Below, in pieces: positions 21,274-24,140 of a stretch of DNA of 59,222 nucleotides. Positions within the stretch are counted from its first letter, which is position 1. Each line of letters begins with the position of its first letter. This stretch comes from Acidimicrobiia bacterium (GTDB lineage Bacteria > Actinomycetota > Acidimicrobiia > Acidimicrobiales > Poriferisodalaceae). Location of the stretch: contig JAJDTF010000128.1 of the NCBI GenBank assembly GCA_022827265.1, positions 1-59,222 of the forward strand, in the 5' to 3' direction. The position numbers and the translations under genes are program-made. Under the pieces are notes generated by a model that saw nothing but the letters and a program-made list of their open reading frames with translations, was not told the DNA's origin and did no database searches.

Positions 21274-21555
21274 TCACGAACGCAGGCCGGCGTAGATCTC
21301 TTTGCATGCCGGACACACCGGGTAGCGCTCGCCGTCTCGCGTCGGCACCCACTTCTTGCCGCACAGCGCTACGACCGCTTCGCCGCTGACGGCCGAGCGG
21401 GTCAGCGCCGTCTTGCTGACGTAGTGAGAGAAGCGGTCGTGATCACCCTCGGTCGTGCGGGTGTCGGGGCGCTCGATGACGTCGGGACTGCCCGCGGCAG
21501 AACCGCTGGCGATTGGACTGCGGCTAGCGCAGTCGCTGAGGGTCTGGGCGGTCAT
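21274..21555 (-). CDS. DUF3039 family protein
   Basis: 93 aa from ATG 21555, preceded by a strong GGAGGGG. The C-terminal half DRFSHYVSKTALTRSAVSG...ALCGKKWVPTRDGERYPVCPACKEIY is the DUF3039 signature of actinobacteria, with three cysteines (ALCGK, PVCPAC) in a zinc-ribbon-like arrangement. The N-terminal 35 residues are low-complexity. Function is unknown in the family. It is divergent from the MFS-ferrochelatase gene with 125 bases between the starts. Confidence 0.85.
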   Translation of the reverse strand: MTAQTLSDCASRSPIASGSAAGSPDVIERPDTRTTEGDHDRFSHYVSKTALTRSAVSGEAVVALCGKKWVPTRDGERYPVCPACKEIYAGLRS

Positions 21556-21680
21556 CTCGCTGGTCCCCTCCGAAACGGCATCGGCTCCTGCCGGTGCAAC
21601 GGTACGGCAGTAATGTGCCCGTTCGCGCCGGAACCGCAGCAGCGGTGCACGCGTGTGTCGAAGGGCAGCCCACACCCAGC

Positions 21681-24140
21681 ATGGCCAACACGTCTTCCAC
21701 GGCTGTCGCAGGCAGTCGACTCGACTCGGCAGCGGGCTGGCTGGTCGTCGCCTCAGCGGTGCTTGCCACATTCGCGACCTTCGGTGTGGTGTACAGCTTC
21801 GGCGTCGTACTCGAAGCCATTCAGACCGAGTTCGGCATCGGCACCGGTCTCACGGCCCTACTGTTCGCGATCTCGACGTTCATCTACTTCGTGCTCGGCG
21901 TCCTCACGGGACGCCTCGGCGACCGCTACGGGCCGCGGCGCGTGCTGCTCGTGGGGGCTGCGAGCACCGGTGCGGGACTCTGGCTCACCAGCATCGTCGA
22001 CAATCTCTGGCTGGCCGTAGGCACCTACGGCTTCGGCGTCGGCATCGGCGTGGCCTGTGCCTATGTGCCGATGGTCTCCGCAGTCGGTGGTTGGTTCGTG
22101 AAGCATCGAACTGCCGCACTCGGCGTCGCCGTGGCGGGCATCGGCTTGGGCCAACTCGTGGGCGCACCCGTCGTGAAGGATCTCGTCGCCGAGTACGGCT
22201 GGCGCGAGGCCTACGAACTGCTCGCCGTGGTCGCAACCGCGCTGCTGGCAATCGCCGCCCTCGGCGCCAAGCGGCCGCCCGACACTGCACCTCTGGATGA
22301 GCTGCCGTCGATGCGGCGGCTGATGCACAACCGCCGCTTCAGCTTGCTCTACATGTCGATGTTCCTGCTGAGCGCCAGCCTCTTCATCCCCATCGTGTAC
22401 ATCGACAAGTACGTATCCGACCGCGGCGGCACGCAAGGGGCCTGGCTGATCTCGCTCATCGGCCTGGCGTCCGTGCTCGGGCGCCTCGGCCTCGGCGCGC
22501 TCGGCAGCGTGCTCCCCCTCATGCGCCTGTACCAGATCTCGTACACAGTGATGGGGTTGAGCTACCTGATCTGGCTGTTCGCCGGCGACAACTCGGCTGC
22601 TCTAGTGGTCTTCGTCCTGGTGATGGGCAGCAGCTACGGGGGCTTCATCGCGCTGTCGCCTGCCATCGCCGCACAACTCTTCGGGTTGACCGGCCTCGGC
22701 GGCGTGCTGGGCGCGCTGTACACCGCTGCAGGGCTCGGCGGGCTCGCCGGCCCACCGCTCATCGGCCTGTTGATCGACAGCTACGGCTTCGGAGTGGCCA
22801 TCATCGCTGCCATGGCGACAGCGCTGGGGTCGGTGCCGCTGCTGATCGCCTCCGGGCGCGCGCACGCCGTCCCACTCGCCACCGTCGGCGCAGGCGCTAC
22901 CGTCACCCGCACCACGACGCCGGCACAGCGCGAACAGGTTGAAGCAGCGCCAGCGGCCCGGCCGAGCGATGTGCCGCCCGCCGCTCGTGTGAGCGATGTC
23001 GCTGCCGCGAGGCCTCTGGAGGGTGCGGCGCCCGGCGTTCGAGCGAGGGATGCCGCCCCTGCCGCTGGAGTCGAGCAGCGCAGGCCGGTGACGGTGCACT
23101 CTTTCCGGGCCGCACCGGCCCAAGCGGCCCTCGGACCCGCGTCGGTCGACTCGGTGCTGCTGCTGTCGTTCGGGGGGCCCGAAGGACCAGACGACGTGAT
23201 GCCGTTCTTGCAGAACGTCACCAAGGGGCGTGATGTGCCGGCCGAGCGGCTGGCCCTGGTTGCCCAGCAATACCTGCGTCATGGCGGCGTGAGCCCGATC
23301 AACGAACAGAACCGCTCCTTGCTGGCGGCCCTGTCGGGTGAGCTGGCTCGCCGGGGCACGCCATTGGCGTGCTACTGGGGCAATCGCAACTGGCACCCAT
23401 ACCTGCGTGACGCCGTCAGCCAGATGGCCGATGAAGGCCGCCGCCACGCCGCCGTGATCGTGACCTCCGCCTTCAGTTCGTATTCGGGCTGTCGCCAGTA
23501 CCACCAAGACCTTGCACGAGCGGTCGACGAGGTGCCCCATGCGCCGCGCATGTCCCGCGTGCGCGTCTACGGCAATCACCCTGGCTTCGCCGGCGCCATG
23601 GCCGAGTGCATCCGCGAGGCACTCCGCGGCGCTCGCCTGCGCAGCGATGTGCGCACCCTGTTCAGCGCGCACAGCCTGCCGAGCCGGATGGCCGCATCGT
23701 GCGACTACGAGGCACAGCTTCGCGATGCCGCCGAGACCGTCGCCGGCATGGCCGGCCTGACCGGCGAGATCGAGGTGGTCTACCAGTCACGAAGCGGCCC
23801 GCCGCATGTGCCGTGGCTGGAACCCGACATCAACGACCGGCTCGCCCAACTCGGCTCGGCGGGCTGCCGTACCGCCCTCGTCGTGCCGCTCGGCTTCGTC
23901 TCCGACCACATGGAAGTGCTCGTCGATCTCGACACCACAGCACGCGCCACGGCCGCTCGCGCCGGCATCACCATGGTGCGAGCCCGGTCGGTCGGTACGC
24001 ATCGGTTGTTCGTCGAGGCGTTGGTAGATCTCGTGGAAGAGACTGCAGGCCTGCGAGCCGACCGGCCTGCAGTCGGACATCTCGGACCCCACCCAGACAA
24101 TTGCGCTCCGGGATGCTGCCCGATCGGGCGGACTGCCTGA
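21681..24140 (+). CDS. MFS transporter fused to coproporphyrin III ferrochelatase
   Basis: One uninterrupted frame of 819 aa from ATG 21681. Residues about 15-392 are a 12-helix major facilitator (LTGRLGDRYGPRRVLLVGA is the loop 2-3 signature; closest in feel to the MCT/OFA group). Residues about 393-487 are an Ala/Pro/Arg-rich linker without methionine. Residues about 488-819 are a complete ferrochelatase: VLLLSFGGPEGPDDVMPFL, catalytic His in FSAHSLPSRM (about 662), FVSDHMEVLVDLD with the conserved Glu (about 743), an internal Cys (YSGCRQYHQD) and a terminal CAPGCCP cluster, matching the [2Fe-2S] ligands of actinobacterial CpfC/HemH. This class inserts Fe2+ into coproporphyrin III. No ribosome site or convincing internal start precedes the enzyme part. 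A substrate for the transporter half (porphyrin, heme or unrelated) is unknown. Confidence 0.9.
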   Translation: MANTSSTAVAGSRLDSAAGWLVVASAVLATFATFGVVYSFGVVLEAIQTEFGIGTGLTALLFAISTFIYFVLGVLTGRLGDRYGPRRVLLVGAASTGAGLWLTSIVDNLWLAVGTYGFGVGIGVACAYVPMVSAVGGWFVKHRTAALGVAVAGIGLGQLVGAPVVKDLVAEYGWREAYELLAVVATALLAIAALGAKRPPDTAPLDELPSMRRLMHNRRFSLLYMSMFLLSASLFIPIVYIDKYVSDRGGTQGAWLISLIGLASVLGRLGLGALGSVLPLMRLYQISYTVMGLSYLIWLFAGDNSAALVVFVLVMGSSYGGFIALSPAIAAQLFGLTGLGGVLGALYTAAGLGGLAGPPLIGLLIDSYGFGVAIIAAMATALGSVPLLIASGRAHAVPLATVGAGATVTRTTTPAQREQVEAAPAARPSDVPPAARVSDVAAARPLEGAAPGVRARDAAPAAGVEQRRPVTVHSFRAAPAQAALGPASVDSVLLLSFGGPEGPDDVMPFLQNVTKGRDVPAERLALVAQQYLRHGGVSPINEQNRSLLAALSGELARRGTPLACYWGNRNWHPYLRDAVSQMADEGRRHAAVIVTSAFSSYSGCRQYHQDLARAVDEVPHAPRMSRVRVYGNHPGFAGAMAECIREALRGARLRSDVRTLFSAHSLPSRMAASCDYEAQLRDAAETVAGMAGLTGEIEVVYQSRSGPPHVPWLEPDINDRLAQLGSAGCRTALVVPLGFVSDHMEVLVDLDTTARATAARAGITMVRARSVGTHRLFVEALVDLVEETAGLRADRPAVGHLGPHPDNCAPGCCPIGRTA

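Follow-up and report, generated by a model that had tools for sequence, protein, structure and literature searches.

In-frame fusion of an MCT-type transporter to a ferrochelatase across a genus of Acidimicrobiia, a probable membrane-tethered enzyme

The locus at positions 21681-24140 (forward strand) of a 59,222-nucleotide stretch of Acidimicrobiia DNA, referred to here as the window, raises the question of whether a membrane transporter and a ferrochelatase are really made as one protein and, if they are, what their joining does. The frame runs for 819 codons without an internal stop and takes in an MFS transporter, a linker and a ferrochelatase. Translation and Pfam searches confirmed the claim of the preliminary description that a single frame encodes the transporter followed by a complete ferrochelatase. 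Its parts are as follows.

21681-22880, forward strand: MFS transporter half, residues 1-400, with 12 membrane helices and an SLC16/SfMCT fold (Pfam MFS_1, PDB sequence matches, AlphaFold2, Foldseek)
22881-23138, forward strand: Ala/Pro/Arg linker, residues 401-486, predicted to be disordered, its first part variable and its last part conserved (PVTVxxFRAAPAxxxLGPAxI) (comparison of 12 copies; AlphaFold2 pLDDT below 50 at residues 401-474)
23130-23132, forward strand: CTC codon where the unfused sister hemH genes have their start ATG (by-eye alignment of MGxGRFDS in the sisters with LGPASVDS)
23139-24140, forward strand: ferrochelatase half, residues 487-819 and stop, of the coproporphyrin type by context (Pfam, TIGR00109, fold of 1ak1 and LmCpfC, ChdC elsewhere in the genome)

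On the opposite strand, the longest DUF3039 frame (21274-21771, reverse strand) overlaps the 5′ end of the fusion by 91 bases. Similarity of this frame to its sister copies starts only near residue 98-108 of 165, and the real start of the DUF3039 gene probably lies inside it.

We modelled the full protein with AlphaFold2 on an 84-row alignment, which 84 of 148 prepared sequences entered; L161 (a stop inside) and L172, L179 and L182 (too short or with a stop) had been excluded beforehand. The model has a mean pLDDT of 86 and a pTM of 0.58, with two confident domains joined by a disordered linker. Helices extend across residues 17-393 and count as 12 membrane helices, one of them kinked, with one short extra; this agrees with the number in the preliminary description, and a hydropathy scan alone recovers 11 of the 12. 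The transporter half scored 122 bits against Pfam MFS_1 (PF07690; cut-off 33.4), with the best stretch at residues 27-301. A PDB sequence search with this half returned SfMCT (6g9x, E 1.3e-22) and also MCT8, and Foldseek matched it to SfMCT, MCT8 and MCT1 (TMt 0.82-0.92). The solved structures closest to it are those of transporters for carboxylates and thyroid hormones. The NCBIfam equivalog for SfMCT-type L-lactate transporters (NF049980) was not reached, at 156 versus 320 bits, and the substrate of SfMCT can therefore not be transferred to this half. The half presumably moves a small organic anion. Because it has 12 helices and basic inner loops, its C-terminus, and with it the ferrochelatase, would lie on the cytoplasmic side. 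Near six unfused transporter relatives located away from hemH, two of the same family and four of other families in the order, 40 ORFs were listed and 10 of them scanned, and none of the 10 belongs to the heme pathway.

The ferrochelatase half matched Pfam Ferrochelatase (PF00762) at residues 491-788 with 267 bits (cut-off 27) and passed TIGR00109 (138.5 versus 124.6), and narrowly missed the NCBIfam ferrochelatase equivalog NF000689 (395 versus 408 bits). In the model the ferrochelatase fold begins at residue 491, mostly at pLDDT above 90, and there is no helix beyond residue 788 of the kind found in a CAB tail. The Foldseek matches listed include coproporphyrin ferrochelatases of Bacillus subtilis and Listeria at TMt 0.86-0.89, with 1ak1 and LmCpfC at 0.88-0.89; the sequence search agreed, aligning this half with the B. 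subtilis enzyme. The conserved Glu of the DHxEV motif has a catalytic role in ferrochelatases. It is kept here (DHMEV) in all 11 complete copies from the genus, as is the catalytic His (AHS[LVI]P; human H263), in line with a complete enzyme as first described, and the twelfth copy (L135) ends at a contig edge ahead of both residues. The available text of PMC8529089 gives the catalytic role of this His, together with the motif CX(1,11)CX(1,11)C for [2Fe-2S] ferrochelatases. The cysteines of the C-terminal tail form CX3CC, and that motif occurs in none of the 11 complete copies, which makes the earlier wording of 'all four Fe-S-type cysteines' too strong. The ferrochelatase half is presumably an active enzyme.

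The heme pathway around the fusion can be read from the same genomes. Each of the 11 genomes yielded a single complete PF00762 gene, and G005 additionally a copy cut off by a contig end; in the source genome (G000, 93% complete) the fusion is the sole PF00762 match. These genomes are 84-98% complete, and a second ferrochelatase could be absent from one or another assembly. ChdC (PF06778) is present in 11 of 11 genomes, and in the source genome it is a separate gene (G000:C40); a Pfam scan of the fusion protein found no PF06778 domain within it. CgoX (TIGR00562) scored above its cut-off in 10 of the 11. Because ChdC occurs throughout, the genus by context appears to run the coproporphyrin route, with the fusion as its coproporphyrin ferrochelatase.

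The preliminary description had proposed searching related genomes for the same domain pair, and this search extended the finding to the whole genus. Both halves lie in one open frame in all 11 genomes, ten of them besides the source genome, and the linker is in frame throughout. The comparison covers 12 fused copies, one per genome and the second, contig-cut copy in G005. The junction is common to the 11 genomes, with alike flanking genes and a linker that varies in sequence and length. We conclude from this recurrence that the fusion is genuine and common to the genus, not an assembly error. Divergence across the genus is greater in the transporter half (59-92% identity to the window) than in the ferrochelatase half (78-92%). 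The two copies in G005 are L134 (G005:C71) and L135 (G005:C67, where the contig ends inside the gene); their transporter halves are 74% identical and their overlapping ferrochelatase parts 91%, and they perhaps represent two strains.

How the fusion may have arisen is suggested by related genera. Unlike in the fusion, the MFS gene and hemH of five sister genera of the same family are separate genes, on the same strand, in 9 of 9 loci tested (L141-L149), with PhoH, DUF3039 and class II RNR as flanks, as at the fusion, wherever the fetched stretch extends. Five further loci (L165-L169), compared by position only, have the same order with a spacing of about 1 kb, and gene order and strand are identical in all 14. 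The arrangement is not family-wide: in G012, G018 and G020 the best matches to the two halves lie on different contigs. Between the sister MFS gene and hemH, which has its own start, lie one or two genes on the opposite strand; the MFS gene and hemH therefore do not form one operon. In seven of the nine loci these are genes for a cupin-like protein (156 aa in L145; 'cupin' is our reading of it) and an acidic protein (104 aa in L145; both at L145:9115-9930), and in L141 and L148 there is a single intervening gene, a longer relative of that for the acidic protein. Queries with the cupin-like and acidic proteins of L145 found matches in 0 of the 11 genomes of the fusion genus. Of 8 control genomes from outside the genus, the source genome of the queries (G023) included, one query matched 6 and the other 7. 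The distant matches to the acidic protein are weak (E 1e-10 to 1e-8), such that a diverged copy could be missed; those in G012 and G018 are also near hemH. Open frames of 967-1058 aa had been listed for G011, G022 and G030, and we rejected these as fusions when direct translation revealed stops between the genes.

Trees of the two halves group the fused copies together. All 12 fused rows form one clade in the transporter tree (support 99/97), in which L161, with its internal stop, was retained, and 11 fused rows form one clade in the ferrochelatase tree (100/99). A separate group holds the 14 unfused sister genes, supported at 99/97 for the transporter and at only 86/73 for the ferrochelatase. 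On this gene order and phylogeny, the simplest history would be a single origin through gene loss, followed by decay of the old start.

The linker itself bears on whether the halves are still read together. Its length ranges from 44 to 103 residues in the 12 copies, with 11 different lengths, always in frame, and its 851 codons contain 0 stops in frame, whereas the two alternative forward frames contain 15 and 10. In the variable part, replacement changes are about 2.5 times as frequent as silent ones, pointing to little constraint on sequence; the last 20 residues ahead of the ferrochelatase have a coding pattern, with differences mostly at third positions. According to the preliminary description, no stop, ribosome site or methionine codon separates the halves. 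The window linker has no stop and no ATG, and to that extent the statement stands; it does contain in-frame GTG codons, at 58, 52, 19 and 17 codons ahead of the VDS that opens the ferrochelatase core. The GTGs at -19 and -17 have a Shine-Dalgarno match of 3 bases at most. GTG is present at -17 in 11 of the 12 copies and at -19 in the twelfth. However, GTG is found in at least 11 copies at 7 of 35 conserved Val sites, and the -17 codon is no better kept than these; we therefore rejected it as a specially conserved start. The site of the old hemH start reads ATG in two of the fused copies, CTC in five (including the window), CTG in two, and TTG, CTT and AGC in one each. The surviving ATGs are in L130 and L131, five codons ahead of [VI]DS, with AGGA upstream in L130, and L135 has at the old-start codon TTG, likewise a usable start. 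Judging by these codons, a free ferrochelatase could still be made in L130, L131 and L135.

The two halves also differ in their closest relatives. The transporter half of the window shares 92% of its amino acids with L132 and 71% with L137, and its ferrochelatase half 92% with L137 and L139 and 82% with L132. Among the neighbouring genes, CNNM, RNR and NUDIX match their counterparts in L133 and L137-L140 at about 90-96% identity and their counterparts in L132 at 81-84%. In a scan by 40-codon windows, the change-over in this mosaic copy falls between about 22800 and 22910. These identities indicate that the two halves have recombined independently within the genus, which fits a loose tether.

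Searches beyond the genus covered the class, the phylum and plasmids. The class survey, a sample rather than an exhaustive set, comprised 296 genomes, 168 of them with a ferrochelatase. Among the matches listed, 20 places besides the window have an open frame of at least 480 aa, and none of these has several hydrophobic stretches upstream (the upstream part of L172 has one); we took these long frames to be shadow frames. Across the phylum, 49 of 246 genomes sampled had a match at E 1e-40, of which, among the best four candidates per genome, only the window's own was full-length, and the 12 places inspected held 0 fusions. Twenty plasmid records matched, none covering 80% of the query. Among open-licence papers, we found no description of an MFS-ferrochelatase fusion or of a transporter-chelatase, and the heme-pathway fusions given in the available part of PMC4921024 include none with a transporter. 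What is new is the domain partner, an MFS transporter, of ferrochelatase, an already known enzyme.

We consider it likely that the locus encodes a genuine two-domain protein, a membrane-tethered coproporphyrin ferrochelatase created by gene loss. The ancestor of the genus would have lost the opposite-strand genes that lay between hemH and an MCT-type MFS gene, along with the stop codon of the transporter, merging the two frames into one. Since then, a polytopic membrane protein would have carried the coproporphyrin ferrochelatase as its C-terminal domain on the cytoplasmic side, held by a flexible and length-tolerant tether. Its chemistry would be the usual one, inserting Fe2+ into coproporphyrin III to yield coproheme for ChdC, at the inner membrane face, and the transporter half would keep its separate role, the transport of a small organic anion. 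Because no stop separates the halves, a ribosome that completes the transporter cannot avoid continuing into the ferrochelatase. The full-length product presumably accumulates. The outcome would be tethering and not substrate channelling, and the tethering probably matters for function. Retention of the fusion may be only a ratchet, unfusing being hard once start and stop are gone. The earlier term 'membrane-tethered ferrochelatase' is supported by the conservation of the in-frame fusion across the genus.

Other readings of the locus have to be set against this one. A faulty assembly, or an artefactual frameshift in a MAG, might be suspected, given that the assemblies are fragmented (20 to 310 contigs; the named ones are MAGs) and that the two copies in G005 differ, one of them breaking off at a contig end, but a junction repeated in 11 genomes with differing linkers and shared flanks refutes this, and we give it practically no weight. 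The preliminary description had named an assembly error or frameshift at 22860-23140, or two separate genes in related genomes with a conserved GTG or TTG start ahead of the ferrochelatase, as grounds for abandoning the fusion; ten further genomes have the same frame, and the GTG at -17 is not special. A different possibility is that the halves are translated together and then parted by cleavage of the linker, or that the ferrochelatase is made mainly from an internal GTG in the linker, leaving two ordinary proteins in either case. The long disordered Ala/Pro/Arg linker would allow for this, as would the GTGs at -17 or -19, the two old-start ATGs and the one TTG. Yet the -17 GTG is kept no better than other Val codons and is poorly matched to a Shine-Dalgarno sequence (3 bases or fewer), the old ATG is gone in 10 of 12 copies, and internal starts leave the absence of stops and frameshifts between the halves unexplained. 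Internal initiation is possible, judging from the start codons most of all in L130 and L131, and we regard separation as an unlikely account of the locus.

The preliminary description went further than tethering, proposing that the transporter couples porphyrin, iron-ligand or heme movement to metal insertion. The transporter half would then be an importer or exporter of a tetrapyrrole, heme, an iron ligand or a precursor that delivers its cargo to the tethered ferrochelatase or receives it from there, as in LplT-Aas. In favour of such coupling, 11 of 11 species have retained the fusion. Coproporphyrin III carries four carboxylate groups, and the Foldseek matches give the transporter half a carboxylate-transporter fold; the connection between the two is our own. 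LplT-Aas, in which lysophospholipid flipping is coupled to acylation and of which some bacteria have apparent, uncharacterised single-ORF versions, provides an example of an MFS transporter coupled to an enzyme (available text of PMC11416262). However, the cargo of the nearest solved transporters is lactate-like acids and thyroid hormones rather than porphyrins; the MFS gene and hemH are not an operon in sister genera; the ORFs scanned near the six unfused relatives include no heme-pathway family; and the nearest relative of the window's transporter half differs from that of the ferrochelatase half and the flanks. The pTM of the model also does not suggest a rigid interface. Carboxylate-type relatives, the lack of an operon and of heme neighbours in these comparisons, and independent recombination leave the coupling claim unsupported, and we think it improbable. 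A transporter-chelatase whose MCT-type half has a tetrapyrrole, a heme precursor or an iron-carrying organic acid as its cargo, consumed or provided by the tethered ferrochelatase at the membrane, with the heme of the genus depending on it, seems to us a long shot. If it were true, transport and metal insertion would be coupled as one machine, with genus-wide heme dependence on it, and this would be the first transporter-chelatase known to us.

In bacteria, ferrochelatase is for the most part known as a soluble or peripheral enzyme. A membrane-tethered ferrochelatase would mean that one genus has built the enzyme into a transporter of 12 helices; the unfused state can still be seen in the sister genera. 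This makes the locus a natural experiment on whether membrane tethering of iron insertion alters heme supply or porphyrin toxicity, and it supplies an MCT-type candidate carrier for direct tests of a link to tetrapyrroles.

By sequence and fold, the best solved relatives of the transporter half are SfMCT (6g9x, 6zgr) and human MCT1 and MCT8, which are not known to carry an enzyme domain. The fusion resembles LplT-Aas in combining a transporter with a cytoplasmic-face enzyme, there apparently also in a single ORF, but LplT and Aas share a substrate and a complex as separate proteins, whereas no shared substrate is known here (PMC11416262, available text). Two ferrochelatases described in the available text of PMC8529089 and PMC3563542 are also comparable. 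Like the ferrochelatase-ChdC fusion of Cutibacterium acnes, the fusion joins an actinobacterial ferrochelatase to a second protein in one chain; in C. acnes that protein catalyses the following pathway step (PMC8529089), whereas here it is an N-terminal 12-helix transporter, and ChdC is a separate gene. Like the type II CAB ferrochelatase of cyanobacteria and plastids, it has a linker leading to a hydrophobic segment, in that enzyme a predicted membrane helix; unlike it, with its one C-terminal helix, the fusion carries a whole N-terminal transporter, in a different lineage (PMC3563542). Taken together, the C. acnes ChdC fusion and the CAB-tailed type II enzyme show that ferrochelatase tolerates both fusion and a hydrophobic tail (PMC8529089, PMC3563542).
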